Shown here: positions 3,391 through 22,649 of the stretch, one piece after another
Position numbering within the stretch: position 1 is the stretch's first letter
Layout: each line of letters opens with the position of its first letter
Origin: a virus
DNA length: 31,818 bases
Reading direction: 5' to 3' (one strand)
Virus record (IMG/VR): IMGVR_UViG_3300005253_000331
Span: 1-31,818 of that record
The notes under the pieces: generated by a model
What the model was told of the DNA's origin: nothing
What the model saw: the letters and a program-made list of their open reading frames with translations, nothing else
The model's database searches: none
Made by a program: the position numbers and the translations under genes

Positions 3391-4329
3391 ATGAAAGGGC
3401 TTGGGTTTTTGATCTGGAGACTGGAGAATATGCCGGCAGTGGATTGGCTGCTGCCGGTGCTGAAGGGCGTGGGCACCAAGTGGATCAGCATCAAGGTGGC
3501 AGATGGGGTATGGAAGTACAACCAGGTGGATGGAAGCAACAAAAAGCTAAAAGAATTCCTGAGGGCTGTTTCTGACGCTGGTATCGAGGTAGGGGGATGG
3601 CATTGGGTTTACCCTGAGAGCCCGGGTAAGCAGGGGGACCTTGCTGTGGTGCTGTGCAGAGAGCTGGGCTTGAAGCATTATCTGCTGGACGTGGAGTATA
3701 ACTGGAAAAAGTCGGGACTGGGAAGATCGGCAAACAAACTATTGGATAAGCTGCATGATGGTATGGAGGCTGTAGATGTGGGATTTTGTTCTTATCGTTT
3801 TCCTAATTATCATCGGGCTGTGCCTTATAGAGAATTCCTGGATCACGAAAACATGGAACTGATAGTGCCACAGCTATATTGGTTACTTGCGCATAACCCC
3901 GCAAAGCAGATAAGGCGAAGCCTGGCAGAATACCGAAAGATCAGCGACAAACCATTTATTCCAATCGGGTGCACATTTCCATGGGGAAACTGGGAACCAA
4001 GTGTAGAAGAACTGAAAGAATTTGTAAAAGAGGCCGTAAGTAGCGAGTTAAAAGCTTATGGGTTCTACTCACTAGACAAGATAGTGGAGGGCAAACGTTA
4101 CGATTGGCTGGATGCAATAGCCGGCAGTGTGCAAACAGAGCCAGGCAACAAGATCAGGATAAAGGTGGATAGACTAAATATTCGTAACTCTCCTAAAATT
4201 GCTGATGCTACAGACATAGGGAACTTGCATAAAGGCGCGGTGATGAATGTGTTAGAAAAACTTGACCCTAACTGGTATCGGGTCGAAGGGTACGTGTGGG
4301 TAAGAGGGACGGAACGTTTGAATGGCTGA
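3391..4329 (+). CDS. Endolysin: TIM-barrel glycoside hydrolase with C-terminal SH3 domain
   Basis: A 312-residue cell-wall hydrolase. Residues 1-235 look like a GH25-type lysozyme barrel: strands such as TKWISIKVAD and EVGGWHWVYP, and the acidic pair D100-x-E102 in HYLLDVEYNW at the position of the GH25 catalytic D-x-E. Residues about 252-310 form an SH3b-like domain (IKVDRLNIRNSPK...NWYRVEGYVWVRG) that would bind the wall. It would cut peptidoglycan at the end of infection after the holin opens the membrane. There is no signal peptide. The gene overlaps the portal start by 8 bases, which places lysis at the head of the late operon. The exact glycosidase family needs a profile search. Confidence 0.75.
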   Translation: MKGLGFLIWRLENMPAVDWLLPVLKGVGTKWISIKVADGVWKYNQVDGSNKKLKEFLRAVSDAGIEVGGWHWVYPESPGKQGDLAVVLCRELGLKHYLLDVEYNWKKSGLGRSANKLLDKLHDGMEAVDVGFCSYRFPNYHRAVPYREFLDHENMELIVPQLYWLLAHNPAKQIRRSLAEYRKISDKPFIPIGCTFPWGNWEPSVEELKEFVKEAVSSELKAYGFYSLDKIVEGKRYDWLDAIAGSVQTEPGNKIRIKVDRLNIRNSPKIADATDIGNLHKGAVMNVLEKLDPNWYRVEGYVWVRGTERLNG

Positions 4330-5683
4330 CCCATTAAGAATTAGGATCGCAAAATGGATAGCCGGAAGCAAAAACGGTGCGCTGGCTTCGGTGACGGCGA
4401 AGGTCGACGATTCTGCTGGGTGGGCTTCGTTGACTGGACGTCCGCACGATTACGAACAGTCGAAGATCATGGAGTTGTACGAAGACGCTTTAACTGCCTG
4501 GCGAAAGAACCCAATAGCCTGGAGGATAGTGTCTATTACGACTGATTACCTGGTGGGAGACAAGTTCCAGATATCGTCATCAAACCGTAATATGAACAAG
4601 TTCATAGCGGAATTTTGGAACCATCAGAAAAACAACATCGATTTGAGACTGGAGGGGATGAGTGACGAACTGGCCCGAGCTGGAGACTTATTTATTGCAC
4701 TATTCCAGAACGACCAGGATGGGATGAGCTACATCCGATTTGTTACCAAAGACCGGATACAAAAGATAGAGACTGCGGAAAACGATTGGGAAGTCGAGAT
4801 TGCTTATTACGAAATGCAGAATACTGGAGAACCACGAAAGTGGCTATCACCCGTACACCCCGATGCCAAGGACGCTAACGTGATAATGATGCACTACAGC
4901 ATCAACAAGCCTATAGGTGCACTGATGGGGGAAGGTGACTTGACCACCATGATACCCTGGCTGCTGCGGTACAGTCGGATGTTGGAAGACCGGGTAAGAC
5001 TGCATTGGGCCATACGTGCGTTTCTGTGGATCGTGACTGTGCCCACCAACAAGGTAAAGGAGAAACGAGAGCAATATCGGGTGCCTCCTGAATCAGGGTC
5101 CATAGTCGTGAAAGACGAAAGCGAGAAATGGGAATCTGTAACTCCATTGCTACGAGGGGCTGACGCCTCGCATGACATGAAATCGGTAAGAGGGATGATA
5201 GATGCCGGCAGTGGGTACCCTCCACACTGGCGTGGTGAGAGTGGAGATGCGAACCTGGCTACGGCTACTGCAATGCAGACTCCTACAGAACGTCACTTAC
5301 TGCGCCGGCAGAGATATTTTGGTTACATTTTGCAGGACATCATATACCAGGCTTACCAGCGCGCGGTGATGAAGGGAAGGATAAGGAAACTATCGACAAG
5401 CGATTACTCGAAGCTGTTCACCATGGACGTACCGGATATACGGCGATCTGACAACGAAGCTCTAGCAAAATCGGCCAAGAGTCTGGCCGATGCATTCAAG
5501 ATAATGGGAGGACAACTACCGGGTAAGAGCGAGACTTTCACCCGGCTGCTGATGAAACTGGTATTTAGAAATGCTGGTGAACCACAGGCAGAAAAGGTAA
5601 TAGACGATATTTTTAATGAGGCCAAGCTGGACAAAACCGAAAGCGAGCCCGAGGAAGAAGAGAAAGAGGAGAAAGAAGAATGA
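4322..5683 (+). CDS. Phage portal protein
   Basis: A 453-residue protein of typical portal size, followed by capsid genes. The N-terminal half (TAWRKNPIAWRIVSITTDYL, then LARAGDLFIALF) shows the helical wing region seen in many portals. The middle has the SGYPPHWRGESGDANLATATA stretch followed by a long helix, matching the stem/crown part. The C terminus is strongly acidic (EPEEEEKEEKEE). Twelve copies normally form the ring through which DNA enters the head and to which the terminase docks. It overlaps the endolysin by 8 bases and the next gene by ATGA. Confidence 0.8.
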   Translation: MADPLRIRIAKWIAGSKNGALASVTAKVDDSAGWASLTGRPHDYEQSKIMELYEDALTAWRKNPIAWRIVSITTDYLVGDKFQISSSNRNMNKFIAEFWNHQKNNIDLRLEGMSDELARAGDLFIALFQNDQDGMSYIRFVTKDRIQKIETAENDWEVEIAYYEMQNTGEPRKWLSPVHPDAKDANVIMMHYSINKPIGALMGEGDLTTMIPWLLRYSRMLEDRVRLHWAIRAFLWIVTVPTNKVKEKREQYRVPPESGSIVVKDESEKWESVTPLLRGADASHDMKSVRGMIDAGSGYPPHWRGESGDANLATATAMQTPTERHLLRRQRYFGYILQDIIYQAYQRAVMKGRIRKLSTSDYSKLFTMDVPDIRRSDNEALAKSAKSLADAFKIMGGQLPGKSETFTRLLMKLVFRNAGEPQAEKVIDDIFNEAKLDKTESEPEEEEKEEKEE

Positions 5684-5988
5684 GCGAAGACAACAGTTTC
5701 GAACAATGGTGCATCATAGAGTTATTTGGTCATCAGGTAATAGCTGGAATGGTGACACAGCAAGCGGTTGGAAGCGCTGCGCTTATAAGGGTTGACGTGC
5801 CTGAAACCGAGGATCATCCAGCATTTACCAGGTTTTACGGTCTTGGCGCCATATACAGCATTACGCCGGTGAGTGAAGAGGTGGCAAAGGTGGCGGTGAA
5901 GGAATTCAGGCCCAAGCCGGTGAATGTATATATGCCGCAATTGGTTGAAAAAACACACAGACAAGATGAGGATGGATATGCCGAATAA
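5680..5988 (+). CDS. Conserved phage-type protein of unknown function
   Basis: A 102-residue protein beginning MSEDNSFEQWCIIELFGHQV and containing FTRFYGLGAIYSITPVSEEV. I recognise this pattern from uncharacterised proteins in phages and prophages but know no function. It is predicted to be mostly beta with no membrane segment. The start overlaps the portal stop (ATGA) behind a GAGGAG site, so it is translationally coupled. The end overlaps the chosen start of the protease-capsid gene by 11 bases. Lying between portal and capsid, it may act in head assembly. Confidence 0.65.
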   Translation: MSEDNSFEQWCIIELFGHQVIAGMVTQQAVGSAALIRVDVPETEDHPAFTRFYGLGAIYSITPVSEEVAKVAVKEFRPKPVNVYMPQLVEKTHRQDEDGYAE

Positions 5989-8083
5989 GAATTCTGAAGT
6001 ATTAAGACCCGCCATCGGACTAAACGGGCTTTGGAACAGCAAGCAAACAGAAATAGGTGGGGGAATGAAAAGTAATACGGTGCGGATCCAGATGGGGAAG
6101 CTGCATTCTTTGGCTGCTAACGCGGGCAAAAGGCGAGAGTATGAAGTAAGGTTCATTACTGCCGGACGAGTAAGGGCTGCTGGTAACCGAGAGTCGAACA
6201 TTATAGTGCCGGCAGAAGCGATACAGAAGGCAATAAGTGAGGAGAAGTTCACTGGCCTCGCAAGTTTCATAGATCATGCCGGCTGGTTCGATTATCCATC
6301 TCTGCGTGACATGGTGGGTGTGTCGCTGTACAACGAATGGAACGAGGAAACAAAAAGCGCCGATGGGGTGATAAGGTTTTTCGGTACTGCGTCGGCAATA
6401 GCACTGTCGATGATACTGGATGGGATGCTGGAAGATAAACGAAATGGGGAGCCGGTGCCGGACGTTGGGTTGAGTATTGTGTTCTGGCCCAAATGGAAAC
6501 CTCGAGACAACCGGGAAGACCCTCTTGTGTTGGATGAATTCAAACACATAGAGAGTTGTGATTTTGTGTTTGAGCCTGCTGCGGATGGGCGGGTTAAGAA
6601 GGCGCTCAATAGTGTGTTGGTTGAACTGGGCGTGAAAAGTAACTCGGAAACAGGTAATAGGAATCAAATTAGTGAAGGAGGTACGGAAATGCCTGAAATA
6701 AAGCAAGAAGATGGTCGTGAAATACACGACTCGGTTGAGCCGACCCACATGGATGCGGCTCAGAGTGATTGGATGGGGGCTTTGTCTGGGTCTGTGGCAA
6801 ATGTACTTATTGCCAACACGGACCTGCCTGCGGCTTCGAAGGAGCGTTTGCAGGAGACGGACTATGCTACACCCGAAACTGTGCTGGCTGCGATTGAACT
6901 GGAGCGTAAATTCCTGGCGCAATTACAGCAGGACCACGTGATAAATATGCCCGGTGGCGCTCCACGTTCGCCGGAGATCAGTATGGGCATGACCGGGATC
7001 GACCAGGTGAAAGCGGCGATTGAGGCTTTGATCGCGGGGGTGCGGCCTGCGGATGGGATACAGCCATTGACCGGAATACGTGAGTTGTATCATTTGCTCT
7101 CTGGTGACTTCGAAATGACTGGTGTCTTCCAGAGAGAGAGGATACGATTTGCAAACGTCACCTCCTCGACCATGGCAGAACTAACCGCCAATGCGCTGAA
7201 CAAGGTAGTGATCAACGAGTTTCAGAAATACCCTCGTTGGTGGGAGGCTATTACTTCGGTAGTTGACTTCCAGAATTTGCAGACTGTGCGTTGGATCACG
7301 TTGGGCGGGGTTGGTGAACTGCCCACGGTGGCAGAAGGTGCTGCTTACACCGAGCTGACCTGGGACGACAAGAAAGAGACCTCCAGCTTCGTGAAGAAAG
7401 GTGGTTACCTGGGGTTGACTCTGGAAGCGATAGACAAAGATGACACCAACCGGCTGAGGGCTGCCCCTCGAGCGCTGGCTCAGGCTGGCTGGCTGACATT
7501 GAGCAAGTCTATCTCGGCCATATTCACTGCAAGCAGTTGTGTAGGGCCGACGCTGCAGGATGGCGACGCGCTATTTCACTCGAATCACAGCAACCTATTG
7601 ACGACCGCTCTCTCTTGGACCGCCTACGTGGCGGCACGCCTGGCCATGCGCAAACAGACCGAAGTACACAGCAGTGAGCGACTGGGTGCTCTGACTTCTC
7701 CCAAGTTCTTGCTGGTGCCTTCGGACCTGGAAATAACTGCGCTTCAGATCCTGGCGAGTGAAGGAGAACCGGGGACAGCGGATAATGACGTGAATCCCCT
7801 GGCAACCGGTGACGCTTTCAATGCACGAATGAACGCGGCCAAGGATCGAGTAATTGTGGTGGACCTGTGGACTGATACGGATGACTGGGCTCTGGTTGCT
7901 GATCCCCAGTTGTACCCTTCGATTGGTCTCGGCTTTCGTTATGGCCGAACACCTGAGATATTCTCAGTTGCCAGCCCGACTGCTGGACTGATGTTCACCA
8001 ATGACACAATGCCTGTCAAAGTGCGGTTCTTCTTTGCAACGGGTCCGACGGACTATCGCGGACTACATAAAAACAACGTATAA
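5978..8083 (+). CDS. Capsid maturation protease fused to major capsid protein
   Basis: A 701-residue polyprotein if started at ATG 5978, which has GAGG six bases upstream; ATG 6065 is an alternative. Residues about 30-215 resemble a herpes/HK97-type prohead protease: a His in GLASFIDHAGW and a Ser in PDVGLSIVFWP at the order and spacing expected for the catalytic pair. Residues about 220-360 are acidic and helical, like a scaffold. The remaining 340 residues read as an HK97-fold major capsid protein (Mu gpT-like pattern: FQKYPRWWEAITSVVDFQN, then VKKGGYLGLTLEAIDKDD). The protease would cut itself and the scaffold away as the shell matures. One gene therefore carries three functions usually encoded separately. 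Boundaries are estimated from sequence texture. Confidence 0.8.
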   Translation: MPNKNSEVLRPAIGLNGLWNSKQTEIGGGMKSNTVRIQMGKLHSLAANAGKRREYEVRFITAGRVRAAGNRESNIIVPAEAIQKAISEEKFTGLASFIDHAGWFDYPSLRDMVGVSLYNEWNEETKSADGVIRFFGTASAIALSMILDGMLEDKRNGEPVPDVGLSIVFWPKWKPRDNREDPLVLDEFKHIESCDFVFEPAADGRVKKALNSVLVELGVKSNSETGNRNQISEGGTEMPEIKQEDGREIHDSVEPTHMDAAQSDWMGALSGSVANVLIANTDLPAASKERLQETDYATPETVLAAIELERKFLAQLQQDHVINMPGGAPRSPEISMGMTGIDQVKAAIEALIAGVRPADGIQPLTGIRELYHLLSGDFEMTGVFQRERIRFANVTSSTMAELTANALNKVVINEFQKYPRWWEAITSVVDFQNLQTVRWITLGGVGELPTVAEGAAYTELTWDDKKETSSFVKKGGYLGLTLEAIDKDDTNRLRAAPRALAQAGWLTLSKSISAIFTASSCVGPTLQDGDALFHSNHSNLLTTALSWTAYVAARLAMRKQTEVHSSERLGALTSPKFLLVPSDLEITALQILASEGEPGTADNDVNPLATGDAFNARMNAAKDRVIVVDLWTDTDDWALVADPQLYPSIGLGFRYGRTPEIFSVASPTAGLMFTNDTMPVKVRFFFATGPTDYRGLHKNNV

Positions 8084-9135: not shown

Positions 9136-10596
9136 ATGAACAAAGGTGAACGGAAACCTTTAATAGCTATAGCTGCCGGTGTTTGGTTGGTGGCTTTGGT
9201 AATGGCTCTGATTTATTTCAGTGGGCCTGGTATAGGGGTGGTAGGGCAAGGAGATGGGATTGTAAGTTTGGGTGTGACTCACTTCTCGGGTATGGAAATC
9301 TCTGGCGATGAGACTGACGAGCTGGTGGTAAACCAGACTTCGAGTGGTGACATTGTGGAGTTTAGGGATGGCGGTTCGGTGGTGGCTCGGATTGCGGATG
9401 GTGGAGCGTCTACGTGGACCGGGGTAATAAACGCGGATGCCGGTATAGATTTCAATGGGTTTGCTGATGCTGTGATCCTGGATGCCGATGGTGATACAAC
9501 GATATCCTCTGACGTTGAGGACACAATCGAGTTTGAGATAAACAGCGCCAATGACTTCAAAATGACTGCGAATCTCTTTACGGCTTATTCGGGTTCAACC
9601 GTAACAACTAACGCTATCAATGAAACCACGGCTGGCTCTGGTGTGGCAATTGAAGAAGTTACTTTCAATGATGCTGCAGGTGCAGACTCCGCTGCAACCA
9701 ATGAGCATACTGAAGTCGCATTCACAACTCCTATAGACACAACTGGTATAAACACCCATAATGCCTTGACCATCGACTTAGCTATTGGTGCATCCACCGG
9801 TGGTACGAACCACGTACGGGGATTAGAGATTGATGGTGTCTCCGGTGATCCGCAGGTGATAGAAAGCGCAATAGTAGTAGGTGCTGGTTGGGACTATGCT
9901 TTTGATACGACTCTACCCATTGTCTCGACAGCACAAACTTACTACGATGACTTCATGGGCAATACTATTCGGGACGAGTGGGCGCTCGATAGTGGTTCAA
10001 CCGCATCGGACCCGGCATTAGACCAACAGCAATTTGGTGTTATAGCATTTACGACCAATGCAGACAGCGCTTATGCCGATGACTTCTCTGCCATAACTCT
10101 GGGGTTACACTGGTCAGCCGATCAAGGTAGCCTGGTGTTTGAGACTAGACTGCGCCACGTCACTAACATCACAGCTCAAGCCGTATGCTTTGGATTGACC
10201 GATGTGCAGGCCGACGAACAATGGGCTGCCATCGATGGCTCTGACGTAGTTACGATTGCGGCCAATGATGGTGTAGCGTTCTGCTTCGATGATACTGCGA
10301 CATCAAAGCAGTGGTTTGCGCTTGGTGTAGATGGAACTACGCCATCTACTGGAAATGGTGCAGTGGGTGCAGGATCAGCACCGGTAGCAGGTACGTTCCA
10401 AATATTTCGAATAGAAGTAGATGCAGCTGGGGAGGACGCTAGATTCTATATCGACGGCGCTCTGGTTGCAACACTAACCGCAAATGTAGTCAATGTAGGT
10501 GTTCTGCTTACTCCATTCCTCAACATAGACAACCTGGGTGACCCAGTAGACGTAATAGACATGGATTACATCTACATCAGTGCTGCACGAAGCTAA
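9136..10596 (+). CDS. Large fibre/spike-like protein with N-terminal membrane segment and lectin-like C terminus
   Basis: A 486-residue protein. Residues 8-27 (PLIAIAAGVWLVALVMALIY) form one clear hydrophobic helix after a basic start (MNKGERK). Residues about 50-170 repeat short beta units of the kind seen in phage fibres (VILDADGDTTISSDVEDTIE, FEINSANDFKMTANLFTA). From about residue 270, starting at YYDDFMGNTIRDEWAL, it resembles a concanavalin-like jelly roll that could bind sugars. It probably contributes to host attachment. The membrane segment is odd for a virion fibre, with possible explanations being assembly at the membrane, tail insertion or a hydrophobic trimer core. A GTAGGAGGT site precedes the ATG. 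Confidence 0.65.
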   Translation: MNKGERKPLIAIAAGVWLVALVMALIYFSGPGIGVVGQGDGIVSLGVTHFSGMEISGDETDELVVNQTSSGDIVEFRDGGSVVARIADGGASTWTGVINADAGIDFNGFADAVILDADGDTTISSDVEDTIEFEINSANDFKMTANLFTAYSGSTVTTNAINETTAGSGVAIEEVTFNDAAGADSAATNEHTEVAFTTPIDTTGINTHNALTIDLAIGASTGGTNHVRGLEIDGVSGDPQVIESAIVVGAGWDYAFDTTLPIVSTAQTYYDDFMGNTIRDEWALDSGSTASDPALDQQQFGVIAFTTNADSAYADDFSAITLGLHWSADQGSLVFETRLRHVTNITAQAVCFGLTDVQADEQWAAIDGSDVVTIAANDGVAFCFDDTATSKQWFALGVDGTTPSTGNGAVGAGSAPVAGTFQIFRIEVDAAGEDARFYIDGALVATLTANVVNVGVLLTPFLNIDNLGDPVDVIDMDYIYISAARS

Positions 10597-10599
10597 AAA

Positions 10600-11115
10600 G
10601 TGAAGACCTTTGCATACTGCGCTGCTTCTTTCGAGAAGAGTGTGAGAAGGGCGGCGGGGGTAACTCCTCTACTCTCGCCGCCAGTTTCTTTTCAGGGCTT
10701 CTTGCCTGAGTGGCTGGAGGGTTATGACCTGCTGTACTTCAAGCTGCATGGTTTCCCGGACCAGGCGTATTGGTATGGTGATGATTGGATAACTGCGATG
10801 AGCGAGGAGCTGGTGAGACAATCGGACCTGAGGGAAACAATTGTATTTGTAGCCAACTGTTATTTACCTGAGAGCCCGATGCTGAAGGCGCTGCTATATG
10901 CTGGTGCCAAAGCCGTGATTGGTGGGGCTGGAGTCAATTATGCCAGGTCTAAACAGGTGGATGGTGCGGATCTGCTTGGACTTTACTTACGATTCTTTAT
11001 GCAGGTGGGATTGTCTGCTAGTAACTCGCTGACATTGGCAAAGAATAGAATCAGGATAAAGAGAAAAAGCATGGTGAAGAGTGACACATTGGATTTCAAA
11101 ATATATCGAGCGTAG
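10600..11115 (+). CDS. Minimal caspase-fold (CHAT-like) putative cysteine peptidase
   Basis: A 171-residue protein started at GTG, 3 bases after the previous stop. It shows the two signatures of clan CD (caspase/CHAT/gingipain) peptidases in the right order: a strand ending in His-Gly (LLYFKLHG, H50-G51) and a strand ending in Asn-Cys (IVFVANCY, C87), followed by a helix and KALLYAGAKAVIGGAG. That last stretch matches the CHAT pattern in which a helix leads to 'aGA-avig'. H50 and C87 would form the catalytic dyad. There is no signal peptide and no partner domain. It lies between fibre and small virion genes, so it may process a virion protein or act on a host target. Activity is inferred from motifs only. 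Confidence 0.6.
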   Translation: MKTFAYCAASFEKSVRRAAGVTPLLSPPVSFQGFLPEWLEGYDLLYFKLHGFPDQAYWYGDDWITAMSEELVRQSDLRETIVFVANCYLPESPMLKALLYAGAKAVIGGAGVNYARSKQVDGADLLGLYLRFFMQVGLSASNSLTLAKNRIRIKRKSMVKSDTLDFKIYRA

Positions 11116-11124
11116 GAGATTGTT

Positions 11125-11595
11125 ATGAAAGGATTGCTATCGGTATTACACAGCCCTATTCAAATTGTAGTTGCTCCGGTTGCAGACACAAGCATCTATG
11201 CTGCGGGAGATCTAATTGGTGGGAAACTTACACTATCGCCGGTGGTGGTGGCTGCGGCTAGTGGTGGGGTGATTCAGACGGTGGTGTTGGTTGACCAGGC
11301 GGATCAAAAATCTGCGATTGACATTGTATTCTTTGGGGCTGACCCAACAGGCACCACATTCACGGACCAGGCTGCCTTGGACGTAGCTGACGCGGATAAC
11401 CTGAATATTGTAGGTGTGGTGAGCATTGGAGCGTCTGATTACGTCTCGTTTAATGACAATGCGCTGGCTACGGTGAGGCCCAGCCTGGCATTCAAATTGG
11501 ACAAAGGGGTAGCGATGTATGCGGCTTTGGTCTGCCGGGGGACACCGACATACGCGGCTGCGACTGATCTTCAGCTGACAGTAACGTTAATTTAG
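11125..11595 (+). CDS. Beta-rich virion-associated protein, unknown
   Basis: A 156-residue protein made of alternating hydrophobic strands (LTLSPVVVAAASGGVIQTVV, VDQADQKSAIDIVFFGADP, FKLDKGVAMYAALVCRG). This texture is common in small structural proteins of marine and environmental phages. No catalytic motif or membrane segment. Clear ribosome site (GTAGGAG) before the ATG. Probably a minor structural protein; no named family. Confidence 0.65.
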   Translation: MKGLLSVLHSPIQIVVAPVADTSIYAAGDLIGGKLTLSPVVVAAASGGVIQTVVLVDQADQKSAIDIVFFGADPTGTTFTDQAALDVADADNLNIVGVVSIGASDYVSFNDNALATVRPSLAFKLDKGVAMYAALVCRGTPTYAAATDLQLTVTLI

Positions 11596-11611: not shown

Positions 11612-12343
11612 ATGGGATTCCTAAGGCTTGGCAGGCGAAAGGTGTTGTTGGGTTCGATGGGGGATTATTCTACGAAGGTGATGGCCCAAACTCCTATTGC
11701 TTACTGGCCTATGTGGGAGGCTGCAGGGAGTGTAGCTGCGGATATAAGCGGCAATGGTTTTGATGGTGTATTTGCGGGTGTGACGTTGGGGCAAGTAGGA
11801 ATTGGTGATGGTAATACCTGTCCGTTCTTCGATGGGGCAAACGACAAGATGAATGCCTACTCGACCGGGTTTAGAGATGCTTTCAATGGTGCTGAAGGTT
11901 CGATTGTTGCTTGGGCAAAGATGAATGCGGGGACAGTATGGGAAGATGGGGTCTCGAGGTATATATTCAGATTTCTGGTAAACGGAAGCAACGAAATTCG
12001 AATGTACAAGTCTACGGCAAATAATCGCATAGACGTGAACTACAAAGCCGGAGGTACTGGACACGTTAGATCACTTACAGCACTAACGACTGTGGAATGG
12101 ATGAACATTGCAATAACATGGAGCAAGATAGCGGATCAAGTGAAGGTGTATTTGGATGGTGTGCAAAATGGAGCCACGTTAACAGGATTAGGAACATGGG
12201 CAGGAACATTCTCCTCTAGTCAGACTGTGGTTGGTGCTCGGATCGTAACCCCATCGGACGTTTGGCATGGGTATCTGGCTCACTTTTCTGTTTTTGGTAG
12301 TCCGCTTGCTTCGGAAGTGGTAGCGGATCTGGCGGTGGTGTGA
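11612..12343 (+). CDS. LamG/concanavalin-like lectin protein
   Basis: A 243-residue protein whose residues about 25-235 follow the LamG jelly-roll pattern: IAYWPMWEAAGSVAADISGN, FDGANDKMNAY, GSIVAWAKMN, WMNIAITWSK, DQVKVYLDGV and WHGYLAHFSVFGSPL. Such modules bind glycans, and in phages they usually sit on fibres or capsid decorations. The ribosome site before ATG 11612 is weak; the in-frame ATG at 11657 is an alternative start. Neighbours are other virion genes, which supports a receptor-binding or surface role. Confidence 0.75.
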   Translation: MGFLRLGRRKVLLGSMGDYSTKVMAQTPIAYWPMWEAAGSVAADISGNGFDGVFAGVTLGQVGIGDGNTCPFFDGANDKMNAYSTGFRDAFNGAEGSIVAWAKMNAGTVWEDGVSRYIFRFLVNGSNEIRMYKSTANNRIDVNYKAGGTGHVRSLTALTTVEWMNIAITWSKIADQVKVYLDGVQNGATLTGLGTWAGTFSSSQTVVGARIVTPSDVWHGYLAHFSVFGSPLASEVVADLAVV

Positions 12344-12773: not shown

Positions 12774-12809
12774 ATAATTGGGTAATCAGGTAAGAACATG
12801 GAGGCTGAA

Positions 12810-13226
12810 ATGAACGAGGAATTTGATTTGAAAGCTATTAAGAAAGAACTGGGGATTGACGTGCCGGTGATAAATACCAGGGTTGTGGGGAAGAATATTG
12901 AGTTGTTTTTGTATGGCGGGCGGGTGGTGAAGTATCCGCTGCCGGTGAGGGAGGGGCCTGGGGATAACATCGTACAAAATGGGGATGATATTGAAAAAGC
13001 TGGGGAAATAAATGAGGAATGGGGTGAGGTAATGGAAATGGATACTGATGAGATTGAGAACCTGCAAGATGAGAAGGGGGACGGTCTCGATCTGGATTAC
13101 AGAAAGTTGAAAGTGAAGGAGCTTAAACAGGAGGCAAAGGAAAGGGGGGTGTTGGGATACGACGCCATGCGAAAAAAAGACCTCATCGAAGAGCTAGAAC
13201 GTAGGGATATATGGCCTGAGGGATAA
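12810..13226 (+). CDS. Acidic protein with C-terminal Rho-N/SAP-like helix-extension-helix motif
   Basis: A 138-residue protein started at ATG 12810, chosen because GGAGG lies five bases upstream; ATG 12798 is in frame but has no site. The middle is strongly acidic. The C terminus (YRKLKVKELKQEAKERGVLG, then YDAMRKKDLIEELERRD) is a clear Rho-N/SAP/LEM-type motif of about 40 residues, used elsewhere to bind nucleic acids or as a small docking module. In phages it often ends connector or head-associated proteins. It may help contact DNA in the particle. The GGTAATCAGG repeat word lies just upstream. Confidence 0.7.
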   Translation: MNEEFDLKAIKKELGIDVPVINTRVVGKNIELFLYGGRVVKYPLPVREGPGDNIVQNGDDIEKAGEINEEWGEVMEMDTDEIENLQDEKGDGLDLDYRKLKVKELKQEAKERGVLGYDAMRKKDLIEELERRDIWPEG

Positions 13227-14913: not shown

Positions 14914-15050
14914 AAACACTGAGAGTTAGATCGTATATTGCCTGGTACGATTTTTGGGTAGGGGCCTATTACGATCGGGATAAAAAAGTTCTTTATCTTT
15001 GCCCTCTGCCGATGTGTGTATTTAAAATCTGGATTGTAGGATACCCATGA
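14910..15050 (+). CDS. 46-residue conserved phage microprotein (WYDFWVG family)
   Basis: A very short gene: MKTLRVRSYIAWYDFWVGAY, then YDRDKKVLYLCPLPMCVFKI and a short end. The core pattern (WYDFWVG...YxD...LYxCPLPM) is one I recognise from many phages and prophages, always tiny and uncharacterised. It overlaps the previous stop and the next start by ATGA on both sides, so it sits in a translationally coupled chain. The composition (Trp, Tyr, Cys) suggests a compact protein, perhaps a clamp or inhibitor. Function unknown. Confidence 0.75.
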   Translation: MKTLRVRSYIAWYDFWVGAYYDRDKKVLYLCPLPMCVFKIWIVGYP

Positions 15051-15724
15051 CCACAAGACAAGATTTACGTAGCTTGATAAGAAGGAGGTTGGGAGATTTG
15101 CTGGCGCCGGTGGGTTTTTCGGACATGCAGATCAACCAGTGGGTCGTAGATTCAATTGCGGAATACTCGAAGCATTTCCCCAGAACTTTGACAACCACGA
15201 TCAGCACAACGGCCGATGACAGAAAATACGATCTACCTGAGGATTATATTGGTGCCCTCAGCGTGGAGTACCCGACTGGCGAAGATCCACCTGCGTATTT
15301 GCTGCATCGTGAGTACACACACGCAAACTTTTGGCAGGTAGATGGATATTACAGTGTGGTAAAGCGTGACGATGGCACCGACGTCGATGAACTGTGGATG
15401 AGCAAGAAGCCTGGTGCAGGCGAAACCATTACGATGATGTATCACGGGAACCATGATTACCTGGATGCGGATGCGGATGTCTGCACCGTGCCGGATAATC
15501 ACATTGAATTGTTGGTATTGTTTGTGCGTTGGCTGGCCAATCAAGAAATAGCTTCGACTGAAGCAAGGGAACCGGATCCTACTTCGCTGAACATAAATAC
15601 CATGGAGCTGAACACCTTCAGGGCTGAGCGTGCCTATAGAAACCGGCTGAAGGAATACAGGTTAGCTGCCGGCAAGAGCGTGCAGGTGCGCTGGGCGATG
15701 GATAAACATGACTCGGTTTATTAG
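15047..15724 (+). CDS. Head-to-tail connector / adaptor protein candidate
   Basis: A 225-residue protein whose N terminus (RQDLRSLIRRRLGDLLAPVG, then INQWVVDSIAEYSKHFPR) is the helical pattern of phage head-completion and adaptor proteins, followed by beta strands (DRKYDLPEDYIGALSVEYP, LWMSKKPGAGETITMMYHG) and a C-terminal helix (FRAERAYRNRLKEYRLAAGK). Such proteins form a ring under the portal to close the DNA channel and receive the tail. It overlaps the microprotein upstream by ATGA. With no tape measure or tube genes nearby, it may bind the short tail directly. Confidence 0.65.
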   Translation: MTTRQDLRSLIRRRLGDLLAPVGFSDMQINQWVVDSIAEYSKHFPRTLTTTISTTADDRKYDLPEDYIGALSVEYPTGEDPPAYLLHREYTHANFWQVDGYYSVVKRDDGTDVDELWMSKKPGAGETITMMYHGNHDYLDADADVCTVPDNHIELLVLFVRWLANQEIASTEAREPDPTSLNINTMELNTFRAERAYRNRLKEYRLAAGKSVQVRWAMDKHDSVY

Positions 15725-15877: not shown

Positions 15878-16558
15878 ATGACAAAAACGCATTTATATGA
15901 ATTGATCTTGGGGCTGGTGTCAGCAGGAAAATTGAACACGGTGACAGGAACTGCTGCGATTGCTTTTGGTATTTCAAACACAGTAACTGGGGATGCTGCA
16001 ATCGGGTTGGGCAACTGGAACACCGCGGACGGGAACTACGGGTTAGCGATTGGCTATAACAACATTGCGACTGGTGTGGTGAGCCTGGCGTTGGGTCAGG
16101 CGGCGGTGACAAGGATACAGCGAACCACAAACATATGCCCACCAATCATAAACCGAAAGGATGATGGGGAGTCTTCTGCTATCGCCTGGGAGTCGTTCTG
16201 CGGGGTGGAAGTGGTGATCATGAGTAAAGAGATAGATTTGGAGGCAGTAGCGGATCAGACCATTAATCTTTACTCTGGGTGTCGTTTCTTCGTAAACGAG
16301 GTTGGGTTGATCGTGACCTCGGCGAACACGGTAACTGATCAACCTACGGTGAGGGCTGGATATACAGGGACGCTGGCGGGGTTGCTGGCTGCGGTGCAAA
16401 CGACTGGGCTGACGGCTGCGGGTCATCGTCAACGATTCACCACAATGGTGACTTCAGCGGGACAAACTACACTTACGGCCGGGGTGACTGTCGTAGCAAC
16501 TGCAACAACTATGCTCGGGCGATTCTATTGGAAGGGATTGCTGGTGGAGAATGAATAA
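15878..16558 (+). CDS. Fibre protein with YadA/Hia-like head repeats
   Basis: A 226-residue protein. Residues about 18-72 contain four to five repeats of the trimeric-adhesin head type (NTVTGTAAIAFGISNTVTGD, AAIGLGNWNTADGNYGLAIG, YNNIATGVVSLALGQ), which fold as a left-handed beta roll in a trimer. The C-terminal 140 residues are beta-rich and could form a distal knob (SCRFF-like strands, TTMVTSAGQTTLTAGVTVVA). It probably acts in receptor binding as a short trimeric fibre. It is flanked on both sides by GGTAATCA repeats. Confidence 0.7.
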   Translation: MTKTHLYELILGLVSAGKLNTVTGTAAIAFGISNTVTGDAAIGLGNWNTADGNYGLAIGYNNIATGVVSLALGQAAVTRIQRTTNICPPIINRKDDGESSAIAWESFCGVEVVIMSKEIDLEAVADQTINLYSGCRFFVNEVGLIVTSANTVTDQPTVRAGYTGTLAGLLAAVQTTGLTAAGHRQRFTTMVTSAGQTTLTAGVTVVATATTMLGRFYWKGLLVENE

Positions 16559-16812: not shown

Positions 16813-17063
16813 CTGAAGATGATCTGGAAGCTGCCCTAATAGCTGCCAAGCCGAAACACGTAATTGATCTACTTCGGATGGACATAAAGGGGTGTGATGG
16901 GTCTTTTGGCTTTGCTCAAGTCTTGGCTGGCGGGGTGATTATGTATGAGCGAACTGATAAAAACGTTGAAGCGAATTATAAGAAGTGTGGTTTTGTTTGC
17001 TCAACACGCTTCGGGTCTGAAATTGAGAAAGTACCAGGAGGATGTTGCATTAGCGGTAGTTGA
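16809..17063 (+). CDS. Doubtful small gene overlapping the terminase start
   Basis: An 84-residue frame from GTG 16809 (or 88 from ATG 16797). Its first 50 residues (TEDDLEAALIAAKPKHVIDL, then KGCDGSFGFAQVLAGGVIMY) look like real protein. Its last 40 residues lie inside the terminase gene in another frame and look less natural. It could be a true gene whose end overlaps by 119 bases, or an older gene extended by loss of its stop. It is in the usual place of a small terminase, but I see no helix-turn-helix. Confidence 0.45.
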   Translation: MTEDDLEAALIAAKPKHVIDLLRMDIKGCDGSFGFAQVLAGGVIMYERTDKNVEANYKKCGFVCSTRFGSEIEKVPGGCCISGS

Positions 17064-18477
17064 TTCTGTGATCAATAAACGGGGGTTGTCGATAGTGGTT
17101 GTGTTTCCGAGGCAGAGCGGGAAAAACGAATTACAGGCGCAGATAGAAACTTATCTGCTGACGTTGTTATCTCAACTAGATACCGAAATAGTAAAAATAT
17201 CCCCGACCTGGAAGCCTCAGACGTTAAATGCGATGAGGAGACTAGAGCGAGTATTGGATAAGAACCTGATAGTACACGACGTTGGATGGAATAAAGAATC
17301 AGGTTACATATATAAGGTGGGGAAGGCTAGAATATTTTTTCTGTCTGGTGGTCCTGCGGCGTCTATTGTGGGGGCGACGGCATCGACTCTGCTGGAAGTA
17401 GACGAGGCTCAGGACATATTAATTGCCAAGTATGATAAAGAGATGGCACCAATGGCTGCCAGCACGAACGCTACGAGGGTGTTTTGGGGCACAGCCTGGA
17501 CTAGCAAGACTCTGCTGGCCAGGGAGATGAGGGCGGCAAGAAAGGCTGAGATGAGAGATGGGATAAGGCGTGTGTTCAAGTTGGATGCTGACGAAGTAGC
17601 TGAAGAGGTGCCTGCATATGGTAACTACGTGGCTGAACAGGTGGCGAAATTGGGAAGGAATCATCCAATGGTAAAGACTCAATACTACTCTGAGGAAATC
17701 GACGCTGAAGGTGGTATGTTCCCGCTGGCTAGAATGGCAATGATGCAGGGTAATCATTTGCCAAGCAATGCACCGAAAGATGATAGTTTGTATGCGCTGC
17801 TGGTGGACGTTGCTGGAGAAGACGAGGGGGTAGGCGATGATGGTGACATCGATTCGCTGGTGAATAGGAGAAGAGATAGTACTGCGGTAACGGTTGTCGA
17901 AGTGGACCTGTTAACCCTGGACGATGAATTGATAAACGCTCCTACTTACCGGGTGGTTCAACGTCACGAATGGGTGGGCATAAAACACACGAAACTATAT
18001 GGAAAGATAAAGGCCCTATTCGAACACTGGAAGGCGTCTTATATTGTGGTGGATGCTACGGGTGTTGGAACTGGTTTGTATTCTTTCCTCGATTCTGCGC
18101 TTCCTGGATCAGTAATACCATACGTGTTCACTTCGAAGAGTAAATCAGATTTGGGGTGGGGCTTTCTGGCGGTGATCGAAACCGGAAGGTATAAAGAATA
18201 TAAGGGATCAGGGGATGAGGATAGAGAAGCTGCGAGAATTCAGAAAGTGTTTTGGATGCAGGTGGAGAATTGTCAGAGCAGGGTACTGGATGGGCCGGGG
18301 AAGCTGATGCGGTGGGGGGTGCCTGATGGGACTCGGGATGTGGGGACCGGAAACCTGGTACATGATGACATGCTTATTTCGGCTGCTATGTGTTGGGTGC
18401 TGGATGATGAAACCTGGGGGATGGCTAAAAGTATGGTGATTGATGCTGTGGATCCACTGCAGGACCTTGAATTTTGA
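16945..18477 (+). CDS. terL: Large terminase subunit (packaging ATPase-nuclease)
   Basis: A 510-residue motor that pumps DNA into the head and cuts it. ATPase part: Walker A FPRQSGKNE (residues 54-62), Walker B LLEVDEAQ (149-156, D153/E154), and a motif III-like WGTAWTS. RNase H-fold nuclease part: acidic residues in YALLVDVAGEDEG (D288), YIVVDATGVGTG (D370) and VHDDMLISAA (D474/D475). All key motifs are present, and the length is normal. The start ATG 16945 lies inside the preceding small frame. It is the last plus-strand gene; the dyad array follows within 110 bases. Confidence 0.9.
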   Translation: MSELIKTLKRIIRSVVLFAQHASGLKLRKYQEDVALAVVDSVINKRGLSIVVVFPRQSGKNELQAQIETYLLTLLSQLDTEIVKISPTWKPQTLNAMRRLERVLDKNLIVHDVGWNKESGYIYKVGKARIFFLSGGPAASIVGATASTLLEVDEAQDILIAKYDKEMAPMAASTNATRVFWGTAWTSKTLLAREMRAARKAEMRDGIRRVFKLDADEVAEEVPAYGNYVAEQVAKLGRNHPMVKTQYYSEEIDAEGGMFPLARMAMMQGNHLPSNAPKDDSLYALLVDVAGEDEGVGDDGDIDSLVNRRRDSTAVTVVEVDLLTLDDELINAPTYRVVQRHEWVGIKHTKLYGKIKALFEHWKASYIVVDATGVGTGLYSFLDSALPGSVIPYVFTSKSKSDLGWGFLAVIETGRYKEYKGSGDEDREAARIQKVFWMQVENCQSRVLDGPGKLMRWGVPDGTRDVGTGNLVHDDMLISAAMCWVLDDETWGMAKSMVIDAVDPLQDLEF

Positions 18478-18815
18478 TATTGGGATGTGTGACTGTCCGG
18501 ATTTGTGACCAACCTGGCCGGTCACGTTATCAAAAGGTCACAGGGGGGGAAAGTGTGAATGATCCCCGAACGTTGACAGCCGGTCGGTCACGTTTTTGTG
18601 ACAGTGCTGCTCTTGGGATTGAGCAGGTTGACACGCTTTATATGTGACAAGCCCAGGGGTGTGGTGTAGCGCTGAGTCACATTTGTGACATGGCCAGGCT
18701 CAGCTACGATCGATGGGTCACGCTTATGTGACAGGGCTCAGCAGGGGGATGCTCGAGGCGTCACGTTTCTTGGGGTGTGACATGACCGGCGGTGGAGCTG
18801 ATCGAGGCGTCACGT
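18478..18815. repeat. Array of GTCAC/GTGAC dyads (dispersed repeat, locus B)
   Basis: Six dyads begin at 18587, 18630, 18676, 18717, 18760 and 18809, spaced 41-49 bp. The best are GTCACGTTTTTGTGAC (18587-18602), GTCACATTTGTGAC (from 18676) and GTCACGCTTATGTGAC (from 18717). Between them are related words such as GCTCGAGGCG, CAGGGCTCAGC and ATCGAGGCG. The first unit is preceded by GTGTGAATGATCC and followed by ACAGTGCTGCTCTTGGG, shared with loci A and C. The array separates the late operon from the convergent early operon and runs into the last codons of the cytosine methyltransferase. It could be an origin, partition, packaging or operator site. Confidence 0.85.
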
Positions 18816-19561
18816 TTGCGGCGTCGCTCTAGGCGTTTGCGACATGCGGGAGTAGCTGATAGTTGCCTCCCGGTTAATCTGCGTCCACATCCACATGCAC
18901 AGAGTCGTACATCGGTGTGCAGAATGTGAGCATCTAACACGGAGCGCGCAATAACTTGGGCCATGGGGATAGGCACGCCATTGCCAACTGCGGCGTAACG
19001 TGCGGCGATTGATAACCCCGGAAAGGTAGTGGATCGGGGGAGACCTTGAGCGGCGCAAAAATCAGACCATGAGCGCCGGTTAGCTTTTTTACCCTCACTG
19101 GCCAGGCAAATGGGTACGGCATGGCCATAGGGTTTTTGGCGTTTGGGGATGATAACGAAGCCACTCTTACTGCCGAACTGGAAATGTCTGAGCCTGGATT
19201 GTCTCATTCCGCATTCACGGGCGTTGAGGTCGAAGCGCTGAACGTGATAGCCCGGGACTGTGATATCTGGTACTGTGGGTACATTCTCAAGCAAAAACCA
19301 TTCAGGGAAGGCTTCTAGGACCACACGTCGGAATTCGGCGAGCATATTGTCACTGTAATCCGTGGGTGTACGGGTTAATGTGCTGAAATCCTGGCAGGGG
19401 CTGCCGGCAATGACGCCGTCGAAGATCGAACCAGGCGGATGAAAGGTGCGGATATCACATCCCCAAAGCAAATCAGGACCACGGACCACACAGTAGCCCT
19501 CTGCTTCGAAGCCTCGGCCAAGGAGATCAATGCCGGGAAATATAGAAAGGATGAGTTTCAT
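18761..19561 (-). CDS. DNA cytosine-5 methyltransferase with C-terminal Cys motif
   Basis: A 266-residue protein (start ATG 19561; an upstream TTG at 19573 overlaps the previous stop and is possible). Conserved motifs in order: the SAM-binding start LILSIFPGIDLLGRGF, motif IV GSPCQDFS with catalytic C56, motif VI LLENVPT, motif VIII ECGMRQSRLRHFQFG and motif X YAAVGNGVPIPMAQ. It transfers methyl to C5 of cytosine in an unknown site, probably to shield phage DNA. After the enzyme comes CACGCGRRLTGRQLSATPAC, then RKRLERRRKR: a four-Cys plus basic tail that may bind metal and DNA. The last 18 codons lie in the dyad array, so the tail may have grown by extension into it. It is the last gene of the leftward operon. 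Confidence 0.88.
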   Translation of the reverse strand: MKLILSIFPGIDLLGRGFEAEGYCVVRGPDLLWGCDIRTFHPPGSIFDGVIAGSPCQDFSTLTRTPTDYSDNMLAEFRRVVLEAFPEWFLLENVPTVPDITVPGYHVQRFDLNARECGMRQSRLRHFQFGSKSGFVIIPKRQKPYGHAVPICLASEGKKANRRSWSDFCAAQGLPRSTTFPGLSIAARYAAVGNGVPIPMAQVIARSVLDAHILHTDVRLCACGCGRRLTGRQLSATPACRKRLERRRKRDASISSTAGHVTPQET

Positions 19562-19569
19562 GAGTGAAT

Positions 19570-20064
19570 TCAAGCTGGACGGAGATATTTAATGGAGTAT
19601 ATATTTTCTAAACGATGAAACAAGATTCTGCCAATGTCTATAAGTTTCTTGTCTGGTATCTTATGTTGGTGCAGCCTGGGGGCCTCTTTCTTGAAACGCA
19701 TTCCAGGGATATTCCCAGTATCTAAAAACCTGATCCAACCGGCGTATTCTGGTGGTTCAATGTCGAAATCACAGGTAACGAACCAGAAATAGTTTGGCCG
19801 TCGCTTCCAACCTCCTCCCGGGTGTAGGAACATGTGATGCTTTGAGCGCTTACAGATAAAATCTGCTCTGTAATCAGCCATAGATCGCTTGATTTCGAAT
19901 TCATGAACAAATCGAGCACGCGTGACACTGGCTAAATCACATTCCCATGGTGTAGGCCAGTAAATAACCTTTGTGTTAGGCACAGCGATAATGTGTTGCC
20001 TTGCATAAAGAACATATTGCATTAGAAGCGCTTGTACTTGATGTTCTGTCAATTTGCTGGTCAT
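19570..20064 (-). CDS. PD-(D/E)XK nuclease-like protein (MmcB-like pattern)
   Basis: A 164-residue protein started at ATG 20064, which overlaps the upstream stop by ATGA. Core: ECDLASVTRARFVHEFEIKR, with D43 and E57-x-K59 as the PD-(D/E)XK triad, followed by SMADYRADF. The same order is seen in MmcB-type repair proteins and in phage relatives. Later parts (NYFWFVTCDF) fit the remaining strands. It may cut or process DNA, or act together with the PAPS-reductase-like and methyltransferase products it is coupled to. Activity is inferred from residues only. Confidence 0.65.
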   Translation of the reverse strand: MTSKLTEHQVQALLMQYVLYARQHIIAVPNTKVIYWPTPWECDLASVTRARFVHEFEIKRSMADYRADFICKRSKHHMFLHPGGGWKRRPNYFWFVTCDFDIEPPEYAGWIRFLDTGNIPGMRFKKEAPRLHQHKIPDKKLIDIGRILFHRLENIYSIKYLRPA

Positions 20065-20909
20065 GAATGACAATAACCTCCGCACATCAGGGGGAGCTGC
20101 TTACCTTTTCTTTCCCTCTTGGCGTCGGCTTCGAGGGGGGCGTCTTCGAGAGGAGTAGCGTTGTATTTGTAGATGTAAAGGGAGTCTGCTGTTGACGCTC
20201 CTCGGTCTGCCAGTGGGTTGTTGCGGTTCTTCCGATCGAAGTTAATTGAGTCGTGCCACTCCGGTGGATCGTTGTCTCTCATGTGTATCCACTCGGACGG
20301 CAGGCGGTAGGGACAAATAACACAGGATGACTTAATGGGGACTGGCAAGTAGAGAGCCTCAAGATACCGTGTGCAATCTAACCTGGTGAGGCGATGTTCC
20401 AATAATGGCCAACGATGTACCATGAACTGGAGAAGGGAGTCTTTCATGCGTTCGGTTTCGTCCCAGGTGATGCCAAGCCAAAGCTCCACAGAGTTCATAG
20501 GTGGGTGGGGTGGGACGCTGGTAGGGTACCCCATGATCTGTCTTATTCTGCGCTTGATGGGGTCGATCTTGAAATGTCTGGTGCACTGTCTGTGAAGTGG
20601 GCCTCCGGTGTCGGTCCAAAACGGGATGTGTATGTGTTCTTCGGCGCCTAGCTTACGGATGGACCCAACAGAAACTACTTCGACTCGCTGCCCTCGATCA
20701 CGTAGCCACTTTATGTAAAACTGTTGTACCTCATAAGTGCGTCTTCGTTCCCACATAGTATCTGCCATGATGATCAGGTCCAAAGGTTCAAGTTCCCCAA
20801 GGGCTGACATAACAGCCAGTACGGTGGATTGGCGCCCGCATCCCCAGGATAGAGCACGGAAAACAGGATCTGGGAGGGCTTCGAAGGTGCGGTATAGGGG
20901 AGTGGTCAT
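20061..20909 (-). CDS. PAPS-reductase/ATP-pyrophosphatase-like protein
   Basis: A 282-residue protein. The PP-loop SWGCGRQSTV (residues 21-30) is the nucleotide-binding signature of PAPS reductases and DndC-like proteins. It is followed by LDLIIMADTMWE and by RQCTRHFKIDPIKRRIR (C109). Near the end of the domain is KSSCVICPYR (C196, C199), so C109, C179, C196 and C199 may hold an iron-sulfur cluster. Family members activate a substrate by adenylation and often move sulfur. Phage members are widespread but uncharacterised. No good ribosome site precedes ATG 20909; a 19-bp palindrome (20920-20938) lies there instead. Genes downstream overlap by ATGA, suggesting joint function in DNA modification. 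Confidence 0.72.
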   Translation of the reverse strand: MTTPLYRTFEALPDPVFRALSWGCGRQSTVLAVMSALGELEPLDLIIMADTMWERRRTYEVQQFYIKWLRDRGQRVEVVSVGSIRKLGAEEHIHIPFWTDTGGPLHRQCTRHFKIDPIKRRIRQIMGYPTSVPPHPPMNSVELWLGITWDETERMKDSLLQFMVHRWPLLEHRLTRLDCTRYLEALYLPVPIKSSCVICPYRLPSEWIHMRDNDPPEWHDSINFDRKNRNNPLADRGASTADSLYIYKYNATPLEDAPLEADAKRERKGKQLPLMCGGYCHS

Positions 20910-20919
20910 GGTGTATTGG

Positions 20920-20938
20920 TAGTCTAATTATTAGACTA
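20920..20938. promoter_or_regulatory. Perfect 19-bp palindrome upstream of the PAPS-reductase-like gene
   Basis: TAGTCTAAT, a central T, then ATTAGACTA. It begins 10 bases before the ATG on the transcribed strand and ends at the stop codon of the upstream gene. It could bind a dimeric regulator or control translation as an RNA hairpin over the ribosome site. The core word GTCTAA/TTAGAC also recurs inside the initiator-like gene. Confidence 0.6.
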
Positions 20939-21238
20939 TATCTTGAGGCGCATCTGTGAAGGCCAGGCTGATTTTAGGTAATAGCGGAAGGATGATTCTG
21001 ATTCTATATGCTTGGGCGCTACACTGGCCATCGGATAGGGCCAGTTTTTGAGAATAGTATGCCATTCTGTATCACTTGGAAAAACCAATACTCTGGATAT
21101 TTGCAGATGGGTCTTTTCAGTGGTGACAAGGACGTCGACCTTTAAGCCGTTGGGGAGATGGGTAGAGGATTTTACTCCTGGTGTTGACTCGGCTTGGATT
21201 AACAGATTGCCTAGAATGAATTGTAGTTTGGAGATCAT
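20936..21238 (-). CDS. Unknown early protein
   Basis: A 100-residue protein (MISKLQFILGNLLIQAESTP; VFPSDTEWHTILKNWPYPM; ending in basic residues). Mixed alpha/beta appearance, no motif recognised. Its start overlaps the stop of the upstream gene by ATGA, which supports translation and coupling. Confidence 0.6.
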   Translation of the reverse strand: MISKLQFILGNLLIQAESTPGVKSSTHLPNGLKVDVLVTTEKTHLQISRVLVFPSDTEWHTILKNWPYPMASVAPKHIESESSFRYYLKSAWPSQMRLKI

Positions 21239-21435
21239 GATTGTGCTACTTTTTCTAAACGGTAAACGTCTCCTGCATGCACAATGGTGGTAATGATGGT
21301 GCGATTATTATCAATGTGGGCGATGCAGAACCAAACATACTGGGACTTATCATCCAGGATGAAATTTATTGCAGCCTGTTCGTCGGAAAATGTACCCATT
21401 TCGATGTACGAACCTACGGTGTATACGGTGAACAT
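21235..21435 (-). CDS. Small unknown early protein
   Basis: A 66-residue protein. I choose ATG 21435 (MFTVYTVGSYIEMGTFSDEQ) because AAAGGAT lies eight bases upstream. A longer frame from 21468 would overlap the methyltransferase. The sequence suggests a small alpha/beta fold (AAINFILDDKSQYVWFCIAH). It begins 5 bases after the methyltransferase stop and overlaps the next gene by ATGA. Confidence 0.6.
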   Translation of the reverse strand: MFTVYTVGSYIEMGTFSDEQAAINFILDDKSQYVWFCIAHIDNNRTIITTIVHAGDVYRLEKVAQS

Positions 21436-21440
21436 ATTGT

Positions 21441-22649
21441 TTATCCTTTCAATAATTCTGTGTACCATCTCAACTTCTGACCGAAATTAAGATGTTTGGT
21501 TGGTATGGTTGCCCGGGCACCAAATGTGTTTAGGCGTTGCTCCAGGTATCGGGCGTAGTCCAGGGTAACATGTAGCTCAATATGATCGCCGGCGCCCAAA
21601 CCGTGATTGATGACGATATCGCGGGCGATGGAATGTGACAGTTCCCGGCGGTCTATGGCTTTCGGCCGGCGCGCAGAAGACCAGAATAGGTTTTGTGTAC
21701 TGTCGACGTCGTAGATTTTGTGGTTGGACCATACTAAAACAGTGTTTGATCGTGCTCCAGCGAGCCTTAGTTGTTTTTTGAATAAGACGACACCAGGTGA
21801 GCTATTCGGTTTTGGTGACTGCACCAGGGCGAATTTACGCTTAGTCGACGGAGGTAGGTCCTGCTTTTGGAAGACAAGAGCGGTTTCGACTGTGATCATG
21901 GGGTAGTTATGGCCTTGGCGTTTATGATGTATCTGACGGAATTGGGAAGGGATGGTTTTGCGGTGGTGTGTGGCCACTAGCAAAAATCCGTTTGATTGGA
22001 GTAGTGCAAAGGTATCTTTTGTGATTGGAACGACTCTGCCTCTACGTACCTTGTTGCCTATGATCAAGATCAATAAGGCCTCATGGCGGAGGATACGCCA
22101 ATACTCTCGATAAACATCGCGCATAGCTAAAAGATAGTTTTCGTAGATGTGAATATTTGCGAGCTGGCGAGGATGGAACCCGTAGCATTGGCCGGTCTTA
22201 CCAACGTAACGGCCATCGAGGGAATGTCCGGCTTTTTTATTCCAGTTGCTGAACAGGTCGAAGTAGGGCGGTGATGTGATTATGGTTGGCAGCGAGCTGG
22301 AGGCAATTGGTAGTTTGGCAGCATCCCACTGGGCGACAACTGCCGGCGCATGGATCAGGGTTTCGTTAAGGATCCGGGAACGGTTTTGGTTTTGAATATG
22401 ACACCAATGAGATTCGATATCGCCGGTGATAGTGGGCCGTCGCTTGAGAGATGCGAAAAGAATAGAACCTGAACCTCCCATGGGGTCAATGACAGTTTGG
22501 CCGAGATCCGTATACATGTCTATAAGATGGGCAAGCCAGTACAGATTCGTCTTGGCTTTGTGTGTAAACGACTCTTCGACAAAATGCAGGCGTCGTATGT
22601 GGTGGTCGCGAGAGTAGATAAAAGGTGTTGCAGTGGTCATGTTGTTCAT
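21441..22649 (-). CDS. DNA amino-methyltransferase (N4-cytosine/N6-adenine type)
   Basis: A 402-residue enzyme. SAM-binding motif I is VIDPMGGSGSILFAS (DPMGGSGS, residues 55-62), and catalytic motif IV is TSPPYF (125-130). The motif order I then IV with a long C-terminal part (about 200 residues, including VETALVFQK and HHKRQGHNYPMITV) fits a methyltransferase whose target-recognition region is C-terminal. It methylates an exocyclic amino group of A or C in an unknown sequence, and can protect phage DNA or mark replication. The start overlaps the previous stop by ATGA behind GGAG. No restriction enzyme partner is recognised beside it. Confidence 0.82.
   Translation of the reverse strand: MNNMTTATPFIYSRDHHIRRLHFVEESFTHKAKTNLYWLAHLIDMYTDLGQTVIDPMGGSGSILFASLKRRPTITGDIESHWCHIQNQNRSRILNETLIHAPAVVAQWDAAKLPIASSSLPTIITSPPYFDLFSNWNKKAGHSLDGRYVGKTGQCYGFHPRQLANIHIYENYLLAMRDVYREYWRILRHEALLILIIGNKVRRGRVVPITKDTFALLQSNGFLLVATHHRKTIPSQFRQIHHKRQGHNYPMITVETALVFQKQDLPPSTKRKFALVQSPKPNSSPGVVLFKKQLRLAGARSNTVLVWSNHKIYDVDSTQNLFWSSARRPKAIDRRELSHSIARDIVINHGLGAGDHIELHVTLDYARYLEQRLNTFGARATIPTKHLNFGQKLRWYTELLKG

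Follow-up and report, generated by a model that had tools for sequence, protein, structure and literature searches.

Prokaryotic proteases with a caspase fold have been studied mostly as defence effectors, secreted proteases and parts of signalling systems. Peptidase family C25 (gingipains, PF01364) and the TPR-C25 proteins of Anaerolineae have a caspase-fold catalytic subdomain with an HG and C active site, and the CHAT proteases (SAVED-CHAT, the TPR-CHAT of Craspase) have the same fold. Among phage systems, head-maturation proteases are encoded in the structural region, and in many phages the gene of a tail-fibre assembly protein directly follows the fibre gene. Polymorphic toxins contain a caspase-like releasing peptidase, a domain of clan CD whose proposed task is to detach a large exported protein from its carrier (PMC3482391).

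The window, the whole stretch of DNA analysed here, is a virus record of 31.8 kb and encodes a putative peptidase that resembles each of these systems in part (Table 1). Unlike C25 and TPR-C25 proteins, it consists of the catalytic subdomain only; the N-terminal subdomain of the two-subdomain C25 catalytic unit, the propeptide, the secretion signal and the TPRs are absent from its 171 residues. It has ANC in place of EAC, is phage-borne and is paired with a fibre-like gene. In contrast to CHAT proteases, it has no sensor, TPR or CRISPR partner, and its locus is not a defence locus. The polymorphic-toxin domain, which by analogy would be the closest precedent in logic, is internal to a toxin, whereas here the peptidase is a separate phage gene and no toxin domain is seen. 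The likeness to phage proteins is one of position: head-maturation proteases, too, are encoded in the structural region, and genes of tail-fibre assembly proteins, too, stand immediately behind a fibre gene. The fold of the window protein differs from that of the head proteases known to us, and the window phage already encodes a head protease as a fusion with the head protein. The initial annotation had called a stand-alone protein of this type in a phage structural region unusual, and we agree: no phage-encoded C25 or CHAT protein was found in the open-access literature, nor was a clan CD protease that cuts an anchored tailspike-like protein free found described for phages.

Table 1. Features of the window and their positions.
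Feature	Position	Strand	Remarks
Portal	4322-5683
Head protein fused to head protease	5924-8083
Partner fibre-like gene	9136..10596	+	486 aa; N-terminal hydrophobic anchor, linker, LGVTHF motif, long fibre-like body
Peptidase gene	10600..11115	+	171 aa, GTG start; putative stand-alone C25-like (clan CD, caspase-fold) cysteine peptidase
H50 codon	10747-10749		putative catalytic residue
C87 codon	10858-10860		putative catalytic residue
Small protein	11125..11595	+	156 aa, downstream of peptidase; relative in L017 (no cassette), similar gene in L217 (by reading)
LamG/concanavalin-like protein	11612..12343	+	LamG-like genes near the cassette also in L206 and L210 (by reading)
Small protein	12798-13226		kind related to small proteins of L205, L208 and L219; weak matches to several PHROGs
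SU10-type adaptor	15047-15724
Further adhesin-like gene	15878-16558		same block; weak YadA-head repeat match
Terminase	16945-18477	+	last in the + block, after the adaptors
C5 methyltransferase-like	18761-19573	-
Phosphoadenosine phosphosulfate reductase-like	20061-20909	-
N6/N4 methyltransferase-like	21441-22649	-
Candidate anti-restriction protein	28884-29693	-	ArdC-type N-terminal domain, IrrE-like metallopeptidase hint

Fold and active site of the phage protein

The open reading frame and the motifs named in the initial annotation, H50-G51, N86-C87 and AGAKAVIGG (residues 101-109), were found again in the sequence. Structure prediction was carried out with AlphaFold2; the model built on a 15-row alignment has a caspase fold with a mean pLDDT of 92.8 and a pTM of 0.90, and a model from the single sequence (pLDDT 33.5) was set aside. 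In the predicted fold, H50 follows the strand at 44-48 and C87 the strand at 81-84, which is the order in clan CD peptidases as defined in PMC12445089 and as initially proposed. The top Foldseek matches were SAVED-CHAT (E 8e-6), DdvA and Craspase, with gingipain R ranking below. VIA-align, in which Z differences of less than 1 count as ties, placed DdvA (Z 14.8, rmsd 2.9, 157 residues), the gingipain RgpB (Z 14.1, rmsd 2.8, 159 residues), SAVED-CHAT (Z 13.3, rmsd 3.0, 153 residues), Craspase (Z 13.0) and separase (Z 12.7) on the model; caspases match as well. The caspase fold, as predicted, is secure. C25 and CHAT are not distinguished by fold alone; it is the sequence link, described below, that picks C25. 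PDB sequence searches with phage and host profiles gave no gingipain, so the link to solved structures runs through fold comparison. Two viral proteins of similar predicted fold and no named function were present in BFVD, A0A1P8DJ94 (E 4e-4) and A0A8S5MXG5 (E 1.3e-3; from Myoviridae sp. ctWaE18), so viral proteins with a caspase fold are not in themselves without precedent.

The phage homologues are 42-58% identical to the window protein, with a mean column identity of 43% over 15 aligned sequences. In this alignment L49-H50-G51 and C87 are among 20 invariant columns, and both H50 and C87 are retained in 16/16 distinct phage sequences. Since these positions are invariant across the homologues, the H50-G51 and C87 motifs are no chance occurrence. 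Thus, the two outcomes that the initial annotation had named as telling against it, a fold lacking the caspase topology or homologues lacking both residues, did not appear. The dyad is conserved and aligns with an invariant His and Cys in the host C25 proteins; both points argue for proteolytic activity, which we infer, and the protein is probably a cytoplasmic, stand-alone clan CD cysteine peptidase.

Relatives and family link

The window protein alone gave no significant match in Pfam, PHROGs, NCBIfam, PADLOC, PDB sequences, or phage or plasmid records; against the PADLOC defence models there was none at E up to 10. Weak hints of DUF72 (E 0.25) and TM1631 (E 0.84) were dropped once the fold was known. 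Single-protein scans of viral and genome contigs gave no match, and homologues were found by an alignment-based scan. When genomes of terminase relatives were searched with the window protein, long proteins with a related domain were found, as was a stand-alone homologue (G286, L170) that is 48% identical to the window protein and has the same gene setting. The alignment of these two stand-alone proteins led to 10 and then 13 viral loci, together 15 IMG/VR contigs (L205-L219), two of which (L210, L211) encode the same protein as L170. Besides the window, stand-alone copies are thus known from these 15 contigs and from two Chloroflexota genome contigs; counts are lower bounds, the collection scans using exact peptide words, and some loci are near-duplicates. 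The G286 locus looks like a prophage, since its gene lies, by reading, amid head and tape-measure-like genes on a contig of 287 kb. The additional copy in G419 is close to the end of a short Chloroflexota contig. A motif search for caspase-like ORFs in relatives returned chance matches only, and L168 and L169 were read as glutamate-synthase-like proteins and not as true relatives.

At E up to 1, 0/15 phage members match the Peptidase_C25 model (PF01364), and 0/15 match the CHAT model (PF12770). In sequence, the phage members are closest to TPR/peptidase C25 (gingipain-family) proteins of Anaerolineae; 33/396 sampled genomes match, a few of these not being true relatives. Three host relatives match Peptidase_C25 (E 2.4e-15, 2.5e-13 and 2.2e-8), above the Pfam cut-off, one of them with a CHAT match at E 0.02, and a fourth has no match. 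HHalign of the phage against the host profile gave a probability of 99.5 and E 3.3e-23, with both catalytic columns aligned; the alignment spans the whole phage protein and, on the host side, only the catalytic second part. In the host domains the His is present in 49/50 and the Cys in 46/50. Anaerolineae (L171, L175, L167 and other host loci) encode proteins of about 600-950 aa in which a C25-type domain is in some cases accompanied by TPRs and the LHG...WYG / EACYG active-site region is invariant. All phage proteins fall into a single clade, separate from the host proteins (support 1.0), with the active-site words ANC and KLHG against EAC and NLHG in the hosts. Because the host relatives pass the Pfam C25 cut-off, and CHAT reaches just E 0.02 in one of them, the phage protein is C25-like, corresponding to the catalytic subdomain of gingipain-type peptidases, and not CHAT in the strict sense. 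The earlier label 'CHAT-like' holds for the fold, which is close to CHAT, and fails for family membership.

The locus and the fibre-like partner

A search with the terminase gave many viral loci as well as 80 genome loci whose titles nearly all name Chloroflexota or Anaerolineae, so that on terminase kinship an Anaerolineae bacterium is the most likely host. The peptidase gene is absent from all of these terminase relatives. The window's gene order is rearranged, with portal and head genes at 4322-8083 and the terminase gene at the far end of the block; in relatives the terminase gene is ahead of the portal and head genes. On the opposite strand, two methyltransferase-like genes flank a reductase-like gene (18761-22649), a trio reminiscent of sulfur-type DNA modification modules or an auxiliary gene.

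The peptidase GTG start is 3 nt past the stop of the upstream fibre-like gene, whose N-terminus recurs in the upstream neighbour of the peptidase gene at all other loci. In 17/17 places with upstream sequence, the peptidase gene is directly behind such an anchored or lipoprotein-like, fibre/tailspike-like gene, often with a gap of a few nt or with stop/start overlap. In the partners, a hydrophobic stretch whose highest 19-residue Kyte-Doolittle mean is 1.8-3.0 is followed by a linker some 10-23 residues long, in most by LG(T/V)THF (diverged in L210, L212 and L213) and then by a long body; those of L206, L209, L215 and L217 have a Cys at a lipobox-like place. Several partner relatives end in Phage_depo_C, the phage depolymerase C-terminal domain. 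In L205:8388-8855, L208:7154-7537 and L219:8309-8773, small proteins with a helix-hairpin-helix-like C-terminus, odd for a structural gene block, are encoded directly ahead of the fibre gene (e.g. DFTAIAGVGPKTAQKL).

The pairing is well supported and, to our knowledge, a new observation. A fibre N-terminus profile, trained on peptidase-bearing loci, matched the 17 loci (16 places) then known as peptidase-bearing and gave no match in the terminase relatives. Neither gene was present in any of the 87 terminase-set loci of the window's head-gene type with at least 2 kb downstream, and both were present in all 11 loci of that head type found via peptidase or fibre (8 distinct records). When the viral collection was scanned with the fibre N-terminus, 12 loci were found, seven of them from known peptidase-bearing records; L222 and L226 end ahead of the expected peptidase position. 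The fibre N-terminus is also present in L227-L229, one phage type by identical proteins. The genes after the fibre are seen in L228 and L229 and do not include the peptidase; L227 ends within the fibre gene. In this type (fibre at L228:7950-9224) GTTHF is directly behind a signal-peptide-like stretch, with no linker.

The near-obligate pair occurs with the gpT-protease fusion of the window, with a separate gpT-type head protein (L212, L213, L215) and with another major-head family (L210); L215 is the window's nearest cassette relative, yet has a different head gene. The two-gene cassette is mobile across head types. The LamG-like gene is a neighbour and not a core part of the cassette, since relatives without the cassette carry LamG-like genes too.

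Possible role of the peptidase in fibre processing

That the two genes almost always occur together suggests that the peptidase serves the fibre. The reading we favour, at a little short of an even chance, is a dedicated protease that frees or matures the partner fibre; of the three roles initially offered, fibre maturation is the best supported, the gene being tied to a fibre-like gene, and no positive evidence was found for action on the host or against CHAT or caspase-like defences. The fibre and the peptidase would be made late, from coupled genes. The peptidase would cut the fibre near its N-terminus, most likely in the short linker that joins the hydrophobic anchor to LG(T/V)THF, and the cut would free the fibre body for the virion or the surroundings. 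The linker as cleavage region is weakly suggested by one lineage, L227-L229, in which both peptidase and linker are absent; the same lineage speaks against the proposal, as it shows that the fibre N-terminus can occur without the peptidase. Topology is the main problem: the peptidase lacks an export signal, while the body of an anchored fibre is expected on the outer side of the membrane, so cleavage would have to come before export.

The same pairing would be expected of a fibre assembly chaperone that keeps the caspase fold and binds the fibre without cutting. The position of the peptidase gene, immediately behind the fibre-like gene wherever there is upstream sequence, fits this. So does the divergence of the protein, which is correlated with that of the fibre N-terminus (r 0.64, p 0.0002, n=15); the correlation speaks for a fibre protease as well. 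Within the window's head type (n=10) the correlation is r 0.67, with a partial r of 0.62 given the head protein, whose own distances correlate with those of the C25-like protein and the fibre at r 0.50 and 0.31; with the terminase (n=6) none is significant. Such correlation could stem from co-inheritance of neighbouring genes alone. Binding alone, however, would not require that both catalytic residues and the positions around them be strictly conserved, and the host relatives that share this dyad match a peptidase family; we consider a chaperone unlikely, though worth weighing.

A host-directed protease or decoy, which would cleave a host protein at entry or at a late stage of infection, or interfere with the related host TPR-C25 proteins or with caspase-like defences, would agree with the Anaerolineae host proteins being the nearest non-phage relatives and with clan CD proteins being known defence effectors. 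This is improbable, given that the gene stays strictly linked to one fibre-like gene whichever head type it accompanies, that there is no PADLOC match and that the phage clade is separate, because of which the phage protein is not a recent copy of one host protein. We find it quite improbable that the pair is a surface-protein cassette outside the virion, with an anchored adhesin or decoy receptor displayed on the infected cell and its shedding or turnover controlled by the peptidase. The hydrophobic anchor in all partners and the lipobox-like Cys in some would suit it, and the pair moves as a unit and is missing from most relatives, like an accessory module; but it is inside a head-to-tail gene block in the same orientation, and depolymerase-type C-terminal domains are typical of virion fibres.

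Returning to the dedicated fibre protease, we tentatively propose, at somewhat lower confidence than for fibre processing as such, that a gingipain/caspase-fold protease serves as a dedicated fibre-processing enzyme, in a mobile cassette whose anchored tailspike-like protein is released by the clan CD peptidase encoded with it. This would be one way for a phage to make or deploy a receptor-binding protein. The proposal is directly testable by co-expression of the two genes. The phage peptidase would be a compact enzyme with its predicted substrate encoded next door, and the fact that a phage clade keeps a minimal, stand-alone caspase-fold protease tied to a fibre-like gene suggests that the fold has another use, in the viral life cycle.
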